Shown: positions 47,106 through 58,296 of the stretch, in pieces
Numbering within the stretch: position 1 is the stretch's first letter
How the letters are laid out: every line of letters begins with the position of its first letter
Source of the DNA: Syncephalastrum monosporum B8922
Taxonomy: Eukaryota; Mucoromycota; Mucoromycetes; Mucorales; Syncephalastraceae
Reading direction: 5' to 3'
DNA: 64,000 bases
NCBI GenBank assembly: GCA_000697355.1
Contig: JNEN01001207.1
Coordinates: 332,595-396,594, forward strand
Made by a program: the position numbers and the translations under genes
The notes under the pieces: generated by a model
Told to the model about the DNA's origin: nothing
Database searches by the model: none
The model's input: the letters and a program-made list of their open reading frames with translations, nothing else

Positions 47106-48540
47106 ATGGAGATACCGTACTATGAAGAACCACCAAGCTATGAAGCGTTTCTGCAGAACCACTTGCGGCCCAACTTGCCTGCGCTGATTGGGCCCGCCTT
47201 GACGCAAGAGTGGAGAGCGCGGCGTGAGTGGGTGGAAAGAAGGGAGGAATGGAAGGAGAATGAGCCGACGATGCAGCCGCGCTTTGAGTTTCTGAAAGCC
47301 AAGTTCGGCAGTGCAGAAGCCCATGTGGCGGAATGTGACCAGCGCGAGTTTACGGACCAACGTCGGGTGGTGATGGGCTTCAGAGAGTTTGTCACGCGGT
47401 GGCAGCAAGGCGACGCACGACTCTATCTCAAAGACTGGCACTTTTGCAACGCTTTTCCTGACTATGACGCCTACCAAGTTCCCGAGATTTTTGCAGGTAA
47501 CTCCGCGCGACTCTGTTGTTGATGATATCATACTGATAAAGTGAATCTATGCAGACGACTGGATGAACGAATACTGGCAGGCGGAAGGGAAGGATGACTA
47601 TCGCTTCGTGTACATGGGCGGCGACGGAACCTTTACCCCGTTCCACGCAGATGTTTACAGGTGAGCGTCTCTTTTCGGGACTGGGCATATCCTGTTCCGA
47701 ACAAACACAGAAGAGGGCGGGATATAGCAAATAGCAAGGTGTCTGACGCTATCACGTCATGTAGGTCGTATTCATGGTCCAGTAATATCTGTGGTGTCAA
47801 AAAGTGGACACTGTTTCCTCCGGGCCAGGAGCACCTTTTCAAGGACAAGCTGAACAACCTCGTCTATGACATCCGATCCGTGGATGCGGAGCAGTTTCCC
47901 GAGTTTGACAAGGCGAGGCGCATGATTGTATACCAACGCGATGGCGAGACCTTGTTTGTACCCAGCGGATGGTTTCACCAGGTAGGGAAAGAGACACACC
48001 CCATCGATGGATACTGGTTTTAAACTCGCCATCACAAAAAAAAAAAAAAAGGTCGAGAATATCGGGGCAACGATCTCGATCAACCATAATTGGGCGAACG
48101 CGTGCAACCTCGACAAAACATGTGCGTCCCTGCTTGGGGATCTAGACGACGTGGAGCAGTCGATCGAGGACTTGAAAGGCAGCATGGACGGAAAAGAGTT
48201 TGGCGAGACATGCCAGAGGTTGCTGTTGGCACATAGCGGCTGGGATGTCAAGATGTTCTTGCAGATGCTGAGTTGCGTTGCACAGCGCATGGCGCATCAA
48301 CAGCAGCAGCAGCAGCAGCAGCAGCAGGAGGAGGAGGAGGAGGAGGAGGAGGAGCCACAGCAGGAGCAGAAGCACAAGCAAAAGCAGAAGCAGTTTGATG
48401 TCGTACAACCGCCTGCCGCTTGGCAGGGCGAGCGGATCGGACAGGCTCTGGGACGGGTCAAGGGGCTCACCAAGGATGCGGATGACTGGAGCCCTATCAT
48501 TACACAGATTGAAGCCTATCTGGAACAACTACCAAAATGA
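47106..48540 (+). CDS. JMJD4: JmjC-domain 2-oxoglutarate oxygenase (JMJD4-like)
   Basis: Four exons (47106-47496, 47555-47660, 47765-47981, 48052-48540) give 400 residues. The order matches JMJD4: an N-terminal segment (MEIPYYEEPPSYEAFLQNHL, then LRPNLPALI), LYLKDWHFCNAFPDYDAYQVP, then the JmjC barrel with the iron ligands His161 and Asp163 (FTPFHADVYRSYSW), the 2-oxoglutarate lysine in CGVKKWTLFPP, and the distal His250 (ISINHNW). FVPSGWFHQV is the usual strand before it. Human JMJD4 hydroxylates a lysine of the release factor eRF1. The C-terminal part carries a (CAG)n(GAG)n-coded Gln/Glu run near 48300-48360. A GTG frame extends a few codons upstream, but 47106 is the first ATG. The last intron ends in a 15-A run plus G, an unusual acceptor. 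Confidence 0.88.
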
Positions 48541-48839
48541 AACATAAAAAAAAAAGTAAAAAGTGGGAACCTCATGTCAACGGCATGGTGCATCCAGTGC
48601 ATCCTCGTATCAATTTGTCAGAGCAAGCTCTTTGTCATTTTCGTTTTTTTCCTTTATTTTTTTTGTTATTTCCCTGTGCGGCAAGAGCTGTACTTTTTTT
48701 TCCCCTAACAAACACATACCCTTCCGCCTCTCTTTTCTTTCTTTCCCTCTCTACGGACTCACACCAAACATACTTTTTTTTTTCTTTTCCTTCTCTCTTC
48801 TATTCTTTTTTAAGACACCACAATAAAAAAAGAAGCCAT
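48541..48839. other. Pyrimidine-rich leader before the unknown protein
   Basis: About 300 bp, strongly T/C-rich from 48640 to 48810, consistent with a promoter/5' UTR. An in-frame ATG at 48537 overlaps the JmjC stop but would encode a Phe-rich translation of this leader, so I reject it as the start. Confidence 0.45.
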
Positions 48840-48905
48840 ATGGTTGCTAGCTCGTTCACAGGAGGAGAACTGCTTCAGCAACAGCGAGAACAAGGACAAG
48901 AACAA

Positions 48906-48937
<32 letters not shown>

Positions 48938-51871
48938 ACCGTCTGAGCCCGCCACCCCTTCTCCTCCGACCTCCATGAGCAACGCAACGACCACAACGAC
49001 CACAATTGCGGAGCCTTCTTTTGTTTCTTCCTCTTCCTCTTCCTCCTCTTCTACTTCGACTTCTACTACGTCTTCTGCGTCTTCTATAGCACCCCTCCTA
49101 TCGTCCTCTGCCACCCGTCTTCGCTCATCCTCGCCATCTCATCCATCCACCACCATGTCCACTTTGTTGCCATATAACTTTGGTAACTATCCGTCCTCAA
49201 CAAACCCCCCCACTGCCGCTGCCGCTGCCGCCGCTGCGTCCTCTTCTGGTCGTACGACGAATGCCTTTGATTCTTCCGCACATCATCCCTCCAGGCTGAC
49301 CGAATACGCTTCTCCCACGCCAAACCCAATCAGCCCGATCCCCCTCACACCTTCCCTCTCCCCCAATCACGCCATCACCGTCGCCGAATGGGCCGGCATT
49401 CGCACACAGAGCCTCGTCGACTGTATGTTTCGATGCTTTCGTTTTATTTATACAAGTGCACTAACTCCAGGTTACGCCCTCCCCCCTCTCCTTCTTCCGC
49501 TTAATCAGCCTGCACGCCGCCCATACCCGTCGAGGACACCCACAAGAAGGACGAAAACAGCTGGCGAGATGTGCACCGCAATATCAAGCGGATGGACCAG
49601 CTGTACGATGCCACGTTCTATTCCTGGCTAAAGTCAGAAGACAACGTGCTTGTCACCGCCATGTATCTGCACCGGATCGCCAACGAATACCCTCTCGAAC
49701 GCATCGCAAACGCGCTCAAGTGGCTCGTGGCAGACTGGCGATGGGAGTCAACCAGTATCTTGGTCCGCCACGTGACCGTCGACTGGTGCGATGAAGCAGG
49801 TAAGAAGAGGACCCAAAGAAAAACGAGCGAGAGTTTGCAGAGAGCATCCACCCGTCCTTGTCATTGAGATTAACCGACCATTTTTTTATATACATATATT
49901 TCCCTTGTGATTATTCCATTTTGAAAAGGAGATATGAAGCGGGCCTATCTCTTGCGGCACCTGACCCAGAAATGGGCAACTCAGTACACCGCGACGCTCA
50001 TCACGACTATCCTCGCCACGCCGCCCTACATGTCAGCCGACAATGCTCAACGCGAACGCTTCTTGCGCGCTTTCACTGAAGACTGGGACTTTTCAAAGCT
50101 CTCCGAGTTCTTCATGTACCTCCAGAGCCGAGCCAATATCGACTACAAACTCAAATGCGTCATGCTGCAGGAAGCAGCAGGCCGAGAGCGTGAAACCCTC
50201 AGCGCAAAACTCAATAGCAGAAAGAAACGGAATGCGGCGGCGAACCATCCTCCCGCGGCCTCCGCCGCCTCTTCCCTTTCCTCCTCCTCCTGTTCCTCAT
50301 CTTCATCCTCGTCTTCCCCTTCGTCTTCGTCTTCGTCTTCGTCTTCCTCTACATCGCCGTCGTCTACAGCAGCCACCGCTTCTTCTTGTTCTTCTTCTGC
50401 CGCGCCCGATGTCAAGCGTACAGATGGCACGCCACTGCTCTTGTCACAATCACCACAGCCTCCCCTTCTGCCGAGCCAGCGTCAGCCAGAGGCACGGACA
50501 CAGATGCAGTCGCCCCAGGTTTTGCCACCGATCACACAAGTACAACATGAAGATCAGCCGCAGGTGGTGCAGGAGCAACAACAACAACAACAGCAGCAGC
50601 AGCAGCCAAGCGTAACACCACCACCGTCCCAAATTGCGGCACACTCGGTTTTGCCACCACCGGCACTACAGATACAAACAGGACAGGATCACCGGGATCC
50701 TGTGAGGATACCCGTCACTGTTGGGTCGTCAAGTGATATGGAAGACGTCAGTGCCACCGGTCCACCATGCAATGCGACGAGCACGTGCCTTGGCAACAGT
50801 AACGAAAGCACACCGTTGGATGCCAATGTCAAGGACAGTAGTAGCACACACTCTGCTACTCCTACTGCTACTGCTATCACAGCAGCCACCACCGCCGCCG
50901 CCACCGCCACCGCCGCTGTTGGTGGTAGTGATGATGGTATCAGCGCCAGCAGCGTTGAGGACCACGTCTCTCCAGAGAGTGCAGGCCCATCGACAACGAC
51001 GGCATCGCCATGGCGGCATCATCATCGCCGCACATCCAGCAACGACGCTGCAGACATGAACAAACGCTTCCGGCTCTCGCGGCCCGAGCTCGAGCCTGAG
51101 GAAGAGGACGTTGCTTCTGCCTCGGCCCTGCCGTCCTCGTCCGCCAGTGTGGGTTGTATCTCCAACACGGTGTCCCCGGGCCCGTCTCCTTCGAGTTCGA
51201 CCCTCGCTCCCGCTTATCACCACCACCACCATCATCATCACCATCATCACCACCATCAATATCAATATCAATATCAGACAAGCTCAAGTAGCGCCACTAC
51301 CGGAACCCGTCGGGCCGCAACGCCGGACCATCCCTATCACCACCACCACCATATTCGATGCGCGACGGCGTCAACGGCGAGCACGAGTAATGGCGACGAC
51401 CAGGTGGTGGATGTGGCGAGTAGTGTCGGGTGTGACGGCAGCCATACGAGCGCCATCAGCAGCGAACTGTCGCATCTTCATCTGAGCTCGCGGATGACAG
51501 CACCTTCCTCGAGTGGGTCGACAAGTAACACAACACCGGTTTCGCCGACGATGGGCAACACGCCGCCGGCTGCGTCACCCGCCCCTCAGCAAGGCACACC
51601 CACACAGCGCACACAGCAAAGTAGCAATCCCGTCGTAGATGTATTCACGAGCGCGCGGCATACCAGCTGCTACCCGACCTCGTCGACGTCGCACCTGCAT
51701 GTGCATCCCGGCTTCCGCTTGCGGCGCCGGTCAAGCTCGAGCAGTTCCACGTCCTCTGCGGGCTCGGCGCAGGGCACATCTGCCACCGAGGACGACAATG
51801 CCGCGTCGTCTTCGGTCAAGAAGCGCAACACGCCTGTCAGCGGCAGAACACCTCGTTTTACGGATGAATAA
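48840..51871 (+). CDS. Large low-complexity protein with conserved-looking helical core, unknown function
   Basis: Three exons (48840-49422, 49509-49799, 49929-51871) join to 938 residues. I do not recognise the family. The first about 170 residues are Gln, Ser, Thr and Ala tracts. From about 185 to 400 there is ordinary, Trp-rich helical sequence: HAITVAEWAGIRTQSLVD, NIKRMDQLYDATFYSWLK, ALKWLVADWRWESTSILV, RFLRAFTEDWDFSKLSEFFM, ending in a basic helix (SRKKRN). The remaining about 540 residues are disordered, with Ser, Gln, Ala and His runs (a His run around 51220-51260), and end with KKRNTPVSGRTPRF. The structured core split over three exons argues for a real gene. The disordered tails suggest a nuclear or scaffold protein, but that is a guess. 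Confidence 0.75.
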
Positions 51872-53501
51872 ATCTCGGTGACTCTCTCACGTGAATCTGC
51901 CACGTTGACAAACCTTGTTTTTGTGTGTGTGTGCGGTGAAGAAAAAAAAGGGGGGGGGGGAATGAGTGGGGTGAGGAGGAGCAAAGAAACTCAAACTTTG
52001 CGTTTCTTGAACTTTAGCACAACCTTGAAGAATTCGAGAGGCGATGTAGAGGATACTGTACATGTAGAAGAGGGTGCCGGTAAACGACGCGAGCGACAAG
52101 TGCACGATAGGAAAACGGAATACTCCTCTCCACATCGAGTCTCCTTTTTCATTGCCCGATTATAAACTACCTTGGGAAAGAAATGACTTGTAGGGAAGAA
52201 AGAAACAGCGACCATCGTTGGAAGCCAAGCGGATGAGCTTGTATGTGTTGTGTGTACACCTTTATCTACTTATCCGATGAGCTGCTATCGTGTTTATTCA
52301 GGGGCGACGTTGCTATCCCGTTCAACACGCGTCCGTTGCCAGGATGCCCTTCCATTCGTTACAGTGACAGTCTTCCCATACGTAAGGCATACATCATAGA
52401 TATAGCACACAAATTCGTGGCATCTTATGGCTGTTCCGTTTGAGCAACAAGAAATCTCATTTGATAATCCAAGAACGACAAGGGCTCTGGACTTGCATAT
52501 TGACAAGTTCTGACAATAACGGTCTCTGGGAAAGAGCTCATGCTTGCAATACCGTGTACACCTTGCCAGGCTTTTCCGTTTTCCTGAACGATAGCGTATG
52601 TATGGCTGTATAAGGAAGACCTTTATCGGTGTAATCTATGGCTGATGCCACACAACTCGCCAAGAGCGTTAAGCGCTCTCTAAGCGCTCCTGCTTAAACA
52701 CTCTTGGTGAGCTGTGTGGCAACTGTCATTCTTTAAACTCAATGGTTCACCGACCAGAAGCAATCAAGGTCAGAGGTTAGTCTTTGAGGAGAGGTGGTGT
52801 GGCCTGGTCCTTCCAGCATAGTGCGCCTTTGTAATCACACCGGTTGGTGAAAGTGTGTTGGGGTTCCCATTGTCCCGTTCGTTGGGATCGGGGTGCTCGC
52901 GCCGAACAATGGCTGTAGGGGAACGTGGATTTAGAGGGAGTGAAGACCAGCTATTGGGCCAGTGTTTTTTGTGAGAACGATGGCGGCGTGCCTCAGAAGT
53001 GAGTTTAATGCATGGTCTAGTAAATGAGGTGTTTGGCGGGATGGTATCGGGGATGTACTGGACAAGTAGCGTCTGTGATAGGCTCGGCTCTGTAGGGGCA
53101 GCCAGTGTAGTGAATAGGATCGATGATCCCGGTACTGCGTAGATGGGGGTAGCAGGTAGACTTTTCAGGACGTATTTTGTATGGACGTGTATCAGACTCT
53201 TTGTTGCGCCATGTGTTGTGATGTGTACAACGACGCTGTTCTACCACCACAGGCAACGTAATCAGGAGCCTGTAGGTTGACACAGGGTTCTGGGATGTAA
53301 AGTGGTTCTAGTGTGGGTTGGTCAGGATGTATGGAATACGTTGCGGGCAGATGTCGGTATGCGCCAGAAGCATGAATTCTTGCGAGCGGTCCCCGAAATG
53401 TAAGGTCCAGCGCCCCCATTCATTGTTTCGACACGTCTCTTTCACTTGCTCTTTTCTTGCCGCAATGTTGCAAGCCGGCCTACGTCGTGATTTACTTCTG
53501 A
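51872..53501. other. Gene-poor region with hairpin
   Basis: 1.6 kb without a supported gene. It contains an A/G homopolymer stretch (51940-51960) and the 74-bp imperfect palindrome at 52647-52720, annotated separately. Confidence 0.5.
52647..52720. repeat. 74-bp imperfect inverted repeat (hairpin)
   Basis: The left arm starting gccacacaactcgccaagag and the reverse complement of the right arm, gccacacagctcaccaagag, match over about 25 of 28 bases, with a loop of about 17 bases. The mismatches are transitions, which as RNA would mostly leave G-U pairs. The loop side holds a small direct repeat of taagcgctc. It could be a tiny transposon-like palindrome or a small-RNA precursor. It does not fold like a tRNA. 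Confidence 0.6.
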
Positions 53502-55190
53502 TTGACCCGATTGCATACGACGGTCTGTGTGCGACGATTGCTGATTCTTCCAATGTACCTTGATTCCACCCTCGCTCCAGAACCCTTGGTCTGGTACAGG
53601 GATGCAGACGACCCGCACGATAACAGCGTTGGCGACCGTAGCAGCGATAATGACGATAATTTCGATAGCGATATTGAGAGCTTTATTTCTGAACCATCTG
53701 GCGGGCAGCTGCCCTTCATTGGCCCCACTTTGCGGCTGGAGTCATCGCCGAGCGCCAACCATTCCCGCGGAAAAAACAACGGATATTCGATGACGCCGTC
53801 CTACATGCCTGCCAACAAGAAGGCAGCCCGCCACATGAGAAGATGAAGACCATTTCATACTTGATAGTATGTCAGCACATCCGTTCTTCTCATTCTTGAC
53901 GAAGAAGGCCCCGAGCGTCAACTTCAAATATCGGTTCCTCAAAGCTTCATGTATCAGCTTCAAGTATCCAAAGTCTTGCATTGAAACATAGCTCAACCCA
54001 GCCCAGCATACCTTTGAACCCAGTATCCGAAACGACTGATACATGTATCAATTGCAGTCCTGTGGCGGAAGAAGGTCTCGTTGATTTGTTCGCCGTGTCA
54101 CCGTATTCGAGACTGCTGCAACAAGGCGAATTTATCTCGCCCAACGATCAGATCGCCAACATTGTGAGCAAAGACTGGCGATCTCATCCTCAAGCAATAT
54201 TTTCCTCTGCCGCAGTCTTATCCGGAAGCTGTCCTCATTCTCGCCGCAGGGAAGCGTACGGCAGAGACAGCTGGCTTGAACGGCGGAAAGATCGCGGAGA
54301 AGTGTACGTGATGGAAAGGCAAGCCCGCTCAGGAGGGCGTCAAGCAGAGCGGGCAATGCCAACCAATCCCTCGGATACATACGGCCTTTGCGGACCGGCA
54401 GCGTGCAGTCGTCGCTCCGGTCATTCTACAATACGAGTGTTGTGAAAAGGAAGACATGGGACATTTCGCGCTCGATCCGATCAGCCCATGACGGCCTCTC
54501 GGATATGGTACTCGATTCCGGGGGCTTTTGCCCTTTTGCTCTACACGAGATTTCTGTTCTCGTTGAGCCCCCCTTAGGACACCTGCGTTATTGTTTAACA
54601 GATGTGCCGCCCCAGCCAAACTCCCCACTTGACAATGTCAATTACTTGGGTCACCTTGCAAGAAGGCTTAATGCTAGAATGTTGGACGTGAATCCATTCC
54701 GCACTCCCGGCCGCCAGTAAAGCAGACCTAGGTCTTGGCATGGACGTATTTACCAGCCACACGGCAAAAGGCAGACAGTCGTCCATGGATGCAAGGTTGC
54801 TGGATGCCCTGGCAACGAAATTTGAAGGAAGCCGACCATCATGTCGTCCGTGTCGACGATTGTTTCACTAGCCAAGCATGCCCCGCGTGTGTACAGAAGG
54901 GTGAATTCGCAAAGACAGAACACCTGGCAAGAGTCGGAGACGACGGAAAAAAAGGATACTACGTCTTAAGCGCTGCACGTCTTGCCGATCATGCATCCAC
55001 CGTGATGGCATGACTGCCCACAACATTGCCCATATTATAAAAAGCATGATCACATACGGGCAGCGCCCTAATCCATTCATATCCTCAGCAAGAACCCTCA
55101 AGGTGACGCAAACAAGGAAGCGACCGGCCGCGCAAGGTTCATTCTACAGGCCCGTACGGTGTAAAAGACTTGTACTGTTAAAATGAAACT
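53502..55190 (+). pseudogene. Decayed Fanzor-like (TnpB-related) RuvC nuclease gene
   Basis: Several open segments in changing frames carry, in order, the marks of a Fanzor/TnpB RuvC nuclease. Around 54070-54120 the sequence EEGLVDLFAVS stands where RuvC-I usually reads DPG..DLF. At 54722-54840 a frame reads GMDVFTSHTAKGRQSSMDAR, like the RuvC-II region. At 54800-54960 there is HHVVRVDDCFTSQACPACVQ, the first half of the zinc ribbon (CPxC). At 54974-55090, in another frame, come CTSCRSCIHRDGMTAHNIAH and GQRPNPF, the second CxxC and the RuvC-III HRD..A.NI motif. Stops (for example TGA near 54444) and at least one frameshift between 54960 and 54974 break the gene, and the RuvC-I Asp is replaced. 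The frame at 53502-53846 (Asp/Ser-rich) may be its N-terminal part. I could not define element ends. Fanzors are RNA-guided nucleases in other fungi; this copy should be inactive. Confidence 0.62.
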
Positions 55191-56268
55191 TGTTTGATCT
55201 AGCAAAAATGCATAATAGAGATAAGAGGAAGCGGAGCTGCTGTCGAAATGAAAACAGGCCTTTTTTTCTGTAGAAAGAAAAAGAACCATCTATACAAAAT
55301 CACGCTCTACTGTACATACTGTACAGAACAACAATGATAGCTGTCCTTGCTCTTTGAACGTATGTCTTGGTTATGCATACACATACATAGCTTATCCGAC
55401 AGTCATGTGCAACAGGTGTAAAATTCAATGAAACCCCATGTTGTGTCACGACGGGACCAGACGCGTTACCCCAGTAGCTTTGCCGTCACTATAAAATAGG
55501 TATTCCTCGCTACATTTTCGCGCTGTTACGTTGAAAGGGGCCCATGACTCTCTGCTTTAACAAACCTGCATTTCTTCTGGCTATTTCGAGCGGCTGTCGC
55601 GGGAATAAACCAAAGTAGGGATCAAAGCCGGGAAGAAGGCGGCTTCGGTACCAAGTCAGGAAAAATGCCTTACACATCATATTTTATCTTAATTTCCGTA
55701 TTCGTATAGAGCAAAAAACACAAACTGAAAATCACTTTTGCTTCAAGAAGGGCCTGAGCAACACGCACTACGTAGGTGTCAGCACGCTATCGCTGCAAAT
55801 AAGAAAAGGGTTGTCTCGATCGGTGGGGGGACAGGCATGAGAGAACACCGAAAAGAAATAGGAAGAAACCTCACAGGGTGTGAACGGCACCGTCATGGTT
55901 CGTCGGCTCGGAGCGGTCGCGCCACTGGCCCGTGGCGTTTATCGGGAGCAGAGAAAATGCCATCAGTTAGTAGGATATGTGGAGAAAGGTACGCTTGCAT
56001 ATAGAAAAGAGAGCGGGAAAGATTAGATACGAAGAAGACGAGGCGAGGAGCAGTTTACATAAGAAGATATGGCTGGATGATGTGCACATGTCGAGAGGGT
56101 GCTTGATCATATGTACGTCTTTGCGGAAGTGAAAATTTCTTGCCGAGTCTTCCCGTTTAGCGGTGTTCAAGTTGGACTGACAAAGCCGGATTGTTCCTGA
56201 CAAGCAATTTTTTTCTCGGGACTTCACATTTACCCGCCCTTTTCTTCTTACACCATACAACTCCAGAA
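55191..56268. other. Intergenic, about 1.1 kb
   Basis: No gene recognised. Short palindromes occur (tactgtacatactgtaca at about 55309-55326). The right end is the LSC1 promoter/leader. Confidence 0.5.
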
Positions 56269-57679
56269 ATGTTGAGAACCACTGCCACCCGCGTTGCCCG
56301 CCTCACTGGTAAACACAGCGACCGCCTAGAATGCATAGGATAAGTCAACTCACGCGGTGTAAACCAACGTGTCGTAGCGCGCCGTTCGTTTGCCAGCCAG
56401 GCTGGTGGTTACGAGTCCACGGCCAAGAACCTGATGCTGAACAAGGACAGCAAGGTCATTTGCCAGGGCTTCACCGGTCGCCAGGGCACATTCCACTCCG
56501 AGCAGGCTATTGCGTATGGCACCAACATGGTCGGTGGTGTCTCGCCGAAGAAGGCCGGCCAGACTCATCTCGGTCTGCCCGTCTTTGGCTCCGTCAAGGA
56601 GGTAATGGGAAAAAAAGCAGTAACGGCGCCACGGTAGCTGACGTTGCTTGATTAGGCTGTCAAGGAGACGAACCCCCACGCCAGTGTCATCTACGTGCCC
56701 CCGCCCGGCGCTGCTGCTGCCATTTTGGATGCGATCGAGAATGAGGTTCCGCTTGTCGTGGCCATCACCGAGGGCATTCCCCAGAAGGACATGGTCTTCG
56801 TCAAGCAGGCCCTCATGACCCAGAACAAGACGCGTCTGGTCGGCCCCAACTGCCCTGGTATCATTGCGCCCGAGCAGTGCAAGATCGGCATCATGCCCGG
56901 TCACATTCACAAGCGCGGCAAAGTCGGTATTGTGTCCCGCTCGGGCACGCTCACCTACGAGGCCGTCAACCAGACGACCCAGGCCGGTCTGGGTCAGACC
57001 CTCTGCGTCGGTATCGGTGGTGATCCCCTCAACGGTACCAACTTCATCGACTGTCTGAAGGTCTTCCTCGAGGACGAGGCTACCGAAGGTATCGTCATGA
57101 TCGGTGAGATTGGTGGCACGGCCGAGGAGGAGGCTGCCGAGTTCCTGAAGCAGTACAACCTCTCGCGTGAGAACCCCAAGCCCGTCGTTTCCTTCATTGC
57201 TGGTGTCACTGCTCCCCCTGGCCGTCGTATGGGTCACGCTGGTGCCATCGTCTCTGGTAAGCGGCAGAGTGCTTTTGAATGGGAAGACTCGGAGGCAAAA
57301 CGAAATAGAAGCGGAGAACATGACTGGAAAAAGAGTGATGTACTGATATGCATTATCCTTTGCCATTCTTTCCAATAGGTGGCCAAGGTACGGCTCAGTC
57401 CAAGATTGCTGCCCTTGAGAAGGCCGGCGTCGCTGTCACGCCCTCGCCTGCTGAGCTGGGCTCAACCCTGAAGGAGGTAAGCAATTAAAAAAAGACAGAT
57501 TGCCACCACCCACTCTATTTTTGCTATTGCACCCCTCCATCGGGTGGGATGGGTTGCATAAGAGCGAATGAATGAAAGGATGGGTGGGTGGGGCAACCCC
57601 TGCCCCTTTTCTATGATTATGTCTCACTTGCGGTTTCTTGATGATTCTGTAGCGCATGGTTGCTGCTGGCTTGGTGTAG
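56269..57679 (+). CDS. LSC1: Succinyl-CoA ligase alpha subunit, mitochondrial
   Basis: Five exons (56269-56308, 56378-56601, 56656-57256, 57379-57476, 57653-57679) join to 329 residues, the same as yeast Lsc1. The N-terminus is Arg/Ala/Thr-rich with no acids ([13 protein letters not shown], then RRSFASQ), a typical mitochondrial presequence. The CoA-binding Rossmann domain shows [20 protein letters not shown] and [12 protein letters not shown]. The ligase domain has [44 protein letters not shown], the [14 protein letters not shown] loop, and the phospho-histidine in [21 protein letters not shown]. With the beta subunit it converts succinyl-CoA to succinate with substrate-level NTP formation in the TCA cycle. 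The last exon encodes only RMVAAGLV. Confidence 0.95.
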
Positions 57680-58296
57680 ATAGATTGTATGGCTCTTTCA
57701 TACCAAAATCACATTTTATCTTAAAGAAAAAACAGACAATCGAAATATACGTATGGATTTCATAGACACGCGAAATCATGAAGCCGTTGCTATTGGATGG
57801 GTCAAGACGAGAGAACAAAGTAAAAGGTCAAAAAAATAAGATAAAAAAAAGCCAGAATGAGATTCAGCAAAATAGGGAGTGCGAGGGTATCCGTTTTCGA
57901 TAGCTTGTTTGGGAAGGTAGACGTGCCCGTGCACGCTTGCACTCATGTACCGTTCATACAGTAAAATTGAATTTTCCAAGCTTACAGTGAGAAAAAAAAA
58001 ATCAAAAAAGTCTGAGGTTGCACAAAGACCAAGTCTTCACCTGCTGAATCCCAGTCAAGAGAAAGGTGAGAGAAGAACAAAGTTCAGTCTCGCGGGCCTT
58101 TGTCTTTTCGAACTTTTTAGCTGCTTGTCCTTTTACCTTTTTGCTGTTTTTCGGTGTCCTCATATATATTTATATCCATTCTCTGTTTATACATACTCAC
58201 ACACACAACGCACCACAACGCAACAGCCGCAAACACACCCACATACATACACTCGGACCCGCGCTCTCTATTTCGTAGCGAAAGTTCATCATCATC
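57680..58296. other. Intergenic between LSC1 and the PAK gene
   Basis: 616 bp, AT-rich, in tandem orientation. No gene seen. The last 250 bp are T/C- and CA-rich, like a fungal 5' leader. Confidence 0.5.

Follow-up and report, generated by a model that had tools for sequence, protein, structure and literature searches.

In a window of 64,000 nt from Syncephalastrum monosporum B8922 (GenBank assembly GCA_000697355.1, contig JNEN01001207.1, positions 332,595 to 396,594 of the forward strand), we identified the remnant of a dead mobile-element gene of the Fanzor1 type. The fossil spans window positions 54239-55145, where some 245 codons of the gene's C-terminal end survive in decayed form. This account, including the inferred live form of the element and the later insertion of a piece of ribosomal DNA, is very probably correct as a whole. 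The features concerned are listed below (window positions).

54239..54520, plus strand: part of the RuvC I-to-II linker of the fossil Fanzor, frame-broken (nhmmer E 9.9e-48; Fanzor open reading frame of the own genome)
54519..54695, minus strand: 28S rDNA insert, antisense, 177 nt, splitting the fossil; missed by the sequence-only reading
54694..55145, plus strand: RuvC-II, zinc ribbon (CPAC, CTSC), RuvC-III (HRDG) and GQRP..F tail of the fossil (nhmmer E 8.2e-128)
54858..54860, plus strand: GAT (Asp) codon in place of the relatives' DEYxTS Glu, aligned with the catalytic E541 of SpuFz1
54879-54890: CPAC
54974-54985: CTSC
54998-55012: HRDGM
55058-55078: GQRPNPF
55148..55174, plus strand: perhaps what is left of the right end of the element, weak by shuffle and tile scores
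56656..57375, plus strand: succinyl-CoA ligase alpha exon, a neighbour outside the fossil (PF00549, E 4.7e-30)

The two homologous blocks were found with an nhmmer profile built from four relatives (L010-L013), which had no further match within the 3,700 nt of the window searched. With the intact Fanzor frame of C164, a contig of the same genome, as the query, 54289-54519 (E 1.5e-6) and 54716-55087 (E 2.1e-6) are found independently, and the 2.1 kb around the fossil match many dispersed places in the own genome, where many Fanzor copies were found. Profile, protein and genome-wide comparison thus back the sequence-only reading in what it had proposed, a decayed Fanzor-like gene. Of the extent it gave (53981..55190), homology covers 54239-55145, while the part upstream of 54239 is unrecognisable. 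A Pfam scan of eight open reading frame pieces of the window, the kind of profile check that had been suggested, returned PF07282 for one of them (54732-55010; E 0.0017), its 18.9 bits falling below the curated cut-off of 26.3 bits; NCBIfam gave no match for three window pieces. This single fragment below the cut-off is what speaks for a chance resemblance or an unrelated zinc-ribbon gene, a reading that is already refuted and whose probability is negligible, given that two blocks are collinear with many dispersed Fanzor copies, at 71-82% in DNA, and that an intact Fanzor protein recovers both blocks.

In the window copy, the linker is followed by the 28S insert, a block matching the relatives' GLGMDG, the Asp codon and CPAC, and then by CTSC, HRDGM and GQRPNPF; the zinc ribbon, HRD and G.RP..F motifs are present as claimed. 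The stops and frameshifts noticed earlier are also real: there are stops in all three frames, and a frame shift within the zinc ribbon leaves CPAC in one frame and CTSC, HRDGM and GQRPNPF in another. Two CxxC pairs and the RuvC-III Asp are all present, but no single open frame holds them. Because these three motifs do not share one frame, we take the window copy to be a pseudogene, a member of Fanzor1 by descent only.

The middle block (54241-54519) carries a trace of its earlier history. Between the window and L010, 35 of 91 third codon positions differ, against 39 of 181 first and second positions (p 0.0049); the corresponding counts are 34/91 and 36/182 for L011 (p 0.0028) and 36/91 and 38/182 for L013 (p 0.0018), three comparisons that share the window sequence and are not independent. 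The concentration at third positions implies that much of this divergence dates from a time when the lineage was still selected at the protein level. The 3′ block (54729-55143) shows no third-codon excess against L010, L011 and L013 (p 0.99, 0.66 and 0.77, respectively). One could take the excess in the middle block, together with zinc-ribbon and RuvC-III motifs that are still readable, as the mark of a domesticated, functional Fanzor-derived gene that is expressed by way of frame changes or splicing and is no fossil at all. Such a gene would have to live with stops in all three frames, a frame change in the zinc ribbon, an rDNA insert, an unrecognisable RuvC-I, Asp in place of the DEYxTS Glu and a 3′ block lacking the excess, and we hold it to be very unlikely. 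As to the origin of the dead gene, the window and L010 agree at 72.8% of the codon-aligned sites of the middle block and at 90.3% of those of the 3′ block, the values for L010 and L011 being 90.8% and 82.7%, respectively; because the two blocks have different nearest relatives, the comparison suggests a mosaic origin of the window copy.

Upstream of 54239, the RuvC-I Asp region could be recognised neither by anchored nor by local alignment. When the 300 nt upstream of 54240 were aligned in anchored fashion with three relatives, 134/300, 300/300 and 126/300 mononucleotide shuffles were equally good, and local alignment to the relatives was likewise no better than shuffles. The peptide EEGLVDLFAV, which had been taken for a RuvC-I motif, exists (54068-54097) but lies outside the homologous part: the relatives' RuvC-I reads VIGVDLGEVCPAATFAMP, and a forced MAFFT alignment sets EEGLVDLFAV upstream of it. 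The replacement of the RuvC-I Asp by Glu claimed along with it cannot stand, RuvC-I being unrecognisable; the real change is that of the DEYxTS Glu, which the relatives keep, into Asp. This Glu is the invariant one of the relatives and does not occupy the canonical RuvC-II position, a candidate that we rejected, as the relatives of both families have Met, Val or Leu there (P0006 and P0007 have Glu).

A tblastn search with the family's 994-aa N-terminal model had no match in window 48000-58000, and the window copy has lost the N-terminal part as well as most of the 3′ RNA scaffold. Three nearby pairs of inverted repeats are chance-like and unconvincing as termini of the window element. Left of the fossil, 53485-53588 (75-82%) and 53771-53887 (76%) match other places in the genome.

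The fossil is split by an antisense piece of 28S rDNA. Rfam LSU_rRNA_eukarya scores 115.2 bits at 54486-54617, and 54520-54696 is 90-91% identical to four LSU loci. The piece is not present in the alignments of the relatives, and its insertion came later than the Fanzor gene. We consider the 177 nt most likely to be filler from break repair. Retroposition of an rRNA fragment is a possible, less favoured origin of the insert: ATTC stands on both sides of it (54515-54518 and 54696-54699), and a second dispersed LSU fragment (L025) exists, but the repeat is just 4 nt long, the junctions carry no A-rich tail and the piece is internal to the 28S. That other fragment, at C154:305826-305961, is 83% identical to the window insert, with an LSU match of 279.6 bits.

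Fanzors had been expected to be sparse, which does not hold here: the 27.5-Mb assembly contains 26 PF07282 matches, 25 of them above the cut-off, which fall into at least two broad groups; with these matches and intact frames of the C164 type, the intact relatives anticipated elsewhere in the genome are also at hand. A young group consists of copies in C164, C179, C173, C176, C24 and C156, whose Fanzor frames share 95-97% protein identity with C164 over the parts present, several further copies being cut by contig ends. In C164, C179, C173 and C176, the core is an open frame with the RuvC-I Asp, the DEYxTS Glu, the zinc ribbon and the RuvC-III Asp; D348 and E294 are invariant in an alignment of seven rows (A4) and D113 in one of three rows (A1). 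Elements of the relatives are about 7 kb long, some of them near-identical. C164 and C179 are 97.8% identical over 6.9 kb and have their ends in common, from which it follows that the wider Fanzor group moved recently in this genome. The family of the window copy is older (C16, C166, C3, C116, C179:32 kb, C158, C185, C83 and C85), with 72-82% identity to the window.

The left-end pattern of the young element occurs at four places and the right-end pattern at eight. In C164 and C179, the two complete elements, we identified no clear inverted repeats and no target-site duplication. No transposase was matched among the further open reading frame pieces scanned, six of C164 and two of C179, a scan that shorter or spliced genes may escape; two of these pieces do have matches, one to a part of Sec61 and the other to a Rieske domain. 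The Sec61/SecY piece lies in the 5′ part of the element (L041:8793-9368:+ and L046:478-1088:+; E 1.5e-10) and is 88% identical in DNA to C60:51548-52156 elsewhere in the genome, where a source-like SecY frame of 394 aa lies; this is an apparent capture of host gene sequence. The Rieske-coding stretch of 353 nt occurs in C179 (L049:689-1041:-, C179:182289-182641) and at C154:614903-615255 and is absent from C164. At C158:206173-206580 (-) and C158:206649-206992 (+) (L015/L016), decayed Fanzor ends stand head to head with a gap of about 70 bp. A further set of Fanzors, family “a” (L031, L033, L035 and others), has a large upstream open reading frame, 965 aa long in L031, which carries knuckles of the CxxC type and shows no match to the XPG-like part.

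The core of the relatives matches SpuFz1 (E 2.4e-5) and PpFz1 (E 9e-4) as the best two of four matches among solved proteins. A Foldseek search with a core model found only Fanzor or Cas12 among the 16 matches at E <= 1e-3, a supporting result only, the model being poor (mean pLDDT 44.3, pTM 0.49). The counterpart of the DEYxTS Glu in SpuFz1 is E541, and that of the HRDG Asp is D606 (numbered 935 and 1000 in the chain, with the published spacing of 65); both are named as residues, and E541 as catalytic, in the sections of PMC10432273 on which we draw. Descent from a bacterial TnpB by horizontal transfer, instead of from a eukaryotic Fanzor, might be argued from the match of the intact relative to NCBIfam guided_TnpB (E 4.7e-6, 26.1 bits, cut-off 100). 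Among solved proteins, however, SpuFz1 and PpFz1 come closest, the relatives lie among fungal neighbours, in elements of some 7 kb with intron-like gaps and a sizeable additional N-terminal part, and the nearest database proteins are from Syncephalastrum, among the matches listed; a bacterial source is thus improbable. The family's database proteins come from Syncephalastrum racemosum, among the matches listed: at E <= 0.001, the composite of XPG-like part and Fanzor had at least one relative among 7984 scored candidates, a second comparison gave at least four matches including the query among 7997 candidates, and a third gave three matches among 4956. Judged by transposon sequence alone, the host is probably a Mucorales fungus of the Syncephalastrum kind.

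As a eukaryotic Fanzor, the family compares as follows with described systems. SpuFz1 (Spizellomyces punctatus, PDB 8gkh) has the same order of RuvC, DEYxTS Glu, zinc ribbon, RuvC-III Asp and GxxRPxxF tail. It also has a 3′ non-coding scaffold of tens of nucleotides followed by a variable flank, given in the pertinent sections of PMC10432273 as a 75-nt scaffold and a variable guide of 14-15 nt. Its element, as far as described in the passages of PMC3627910 used here, has a single open reading frame, measures some 2.1 kb, ends in inverted repeats and uses TA target sites; the relatives here, in contrast, measure about 7 kb and have the extra XPG-like N-terminal part, and the window copy is dead. 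PpFz1 (Parasitella parasitica, PDB 9cf0), the second-best solved match, is likewise a Fanzor1 from Mucorales; its RuvC-insertion domain binds cyclophilin, according to the relevant part of PMC11423790, and the main text of that paper never mentions XPG, FEN1, fusion or fused. The MCi and ROr Fanzor1 elements of Mucor and Rhizopus (Bao and Jurka 2013, PMC3627910), compared by description and not by sequence, resemble those studied here in that a single Mucorales genome has several families, some of which lack clear inverted repeats and have large 5′ regions; unlike the present relatives, they are given no XPG/FEN-like part in those passages of the paper.

In the relatives, the element ends within some 55 nt of the stop codon, and six copies of the young group have differing flanks past the right end. 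The right-end stretch folds into three hairpins (all five relatives folded, C185 without the third), with folding z of -2.98 to -4.98 in five relatives and +0.55 for the equivalent stretch of the window. Base pairs with changes on both sides number three of the 16 tabulated for five chosen right ends, the table leaving out C16, C166, C179b, C85 and C158 as well as one stem each of C186, C116 and C185. A covariance model, R1, built from six right ends, gave 16 matches at E <= 1 in 30 sources, L015 and L016 being one place. Those outside the training set include L038 (34.6 bits) and L023 (45.5 bits), and also L014 (69.4 bits), which is very similar to training sequences. There was no R1 match in the window, in the fossil relatives L022 and L027 or in 11 loci of other groups, and the Fanzors of family “a” (L029-L035 and others) are without the R1 scaffold.

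In place and form, the three-hairpin right end is as expected from descriptions of Fanzor, and we regard it as a putative guide-RNA scaffold. In TnpB-like systems, the guide usually occupies the position that follows the scaffold, and the flank would thus predict the guide of each copy. Possibly, the window retains at most the last 27 nt of such a right end (55148-55174): depending on which relative it is compared with, its score is reached by 11-44 of 1000 shuffles and by 6-26 of 1121 window tiles.

Upstream of the Fanzor part, relatives encode a region resembling XPG/FEN1 nucleases, at the following places.

L046:1452-2431 (C164 element): XPG/FEN1-like region upstream of Fanzor, same strand, young family
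L051 (C166:72500-75000): XPG/FEN1-like region upstream of Fanzor, same strand, old family
L010: XPG/FEN1-like region upstream of Fanzor, same strand

Seven exons chosen by hand upstream of the Fanzor frame of the C164 element give one model of 994 aa, with a provisional last exon junction to Fanzor; its first 350 residues include MGVKNLHYH, LREADAQVV, SRDGDLFAYGG and SGNDY. Introns are commonly spliced at GT-AG borders, and motifs of this sort are familiar from XPG nucleases. XPG_I (PF00867) matches both members searched (E 7.9e-5; 23.4 bits, below the gathering score of 24.9), and fen_arch, the archaeal flap endonuclease-1, matches one of the two over 200 residues (E 1.7e-4; 20.8 bits against a cut-off of 351.95). 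A PDB profile search with the N-terminal part found no XPG/FEN chain. The N-terminal part of the relatives is, on these sequence matches, likely an XPG/FEN-like domain. None was found in L030, L031, L036 and L039 of family “a”.

In S. racemosum, the automatic gene model for the hypothetical protein BCR43DRAFT_559548 (P0001; 1166 aa) combines an XPG-like part, a middle region and RuvC-I in one protein and in the same order as here; unlike the relatives, the gene model ends before the zinc ribbon. Its predicted structure (mean pLDDT 39.6) is too low in confidence to judge an XPG fold. The “partial” records P0002-P0004 span 54% of P0001 residues 1-1000, and P0002 begins in the middle region. XPG-like and Fanzor parts follow each other in this order along C166, a member of the fossil's own family, and pieces of the same order are found in C16, the nearest window relative for the 3′ block. 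C166 is 81% identical to P0001 over residues 380-969. An XPG_I search of the own genome matched C166:74124-74237 (E 0.025) beside an unrelated place of equal score in C129 (E 0.023), C164 and C179 not being among the matches; by itself this XPG_I match proves nothing, and the P0001 matches along C166 are better evidence. Taken as a gene model, a single XPG-Fanzor fusion protein seems more likely than two genes.

From the relatives we infer a live element that would have encoded a single large protein, in which an XPG/FEN1-like nuclease region and a middle region precede the RuvC/zinc-ribbon core of Fanzor, and that would also have made a guide RNA at its right end, three hairpins followed by host flank as the guide. 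The complex of protein and RNA would cut empty sites matching the flank, which would help the element to be restored or copied, and in the course of repair flaps or branched intermediates could be trimmed by the XPG-like part. The window copy would then have drifted, lost its ends and gained the 177-nt piece of 28S rDNA, which most likely filled a break under repair. For the lineage as a whole we offer, tentatively, a Fanzor1 fused to an XPG/FEN1-like nuclease, in which no transposase was found and which might spread in a homing-like manner by guided breaks at empty sites, flap processing and repair, with host DNA (rDNA, Sec61, Rieske) as filler; we think this doubtful as yet.

We found no report of a Fanzor with XPG in the open literature (subscription papers and preprints lying outside this scope), and term searches of the same literature returned nothing on Fanzor in Mucoromycota or Syncephalastrum; Fanzor and FEN1 do occur together there in a paper on cargo integration. 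As far as the searched open literature goes, the family with the XPG-like part is new; the kind of fossil found in the window is already known.

By itself, the fossil is another dead transposon gene, and its relatives matter more: one fungal genome offers several related Fanzor families, recent near-identical copies, a recognisable RNA scaffold and an apparent link to a domain resembling flap nucleases. To judge from the rDNA insert, such elements can incorporate host DNA. If the link between the XPG-like part and Fanzor is real, it would give a handle on what Fanzor does for its element; the pairing of a guided cutter with a structure-specific nuclease, if true, would suggest repair-driven copying and not ordinary transposition.
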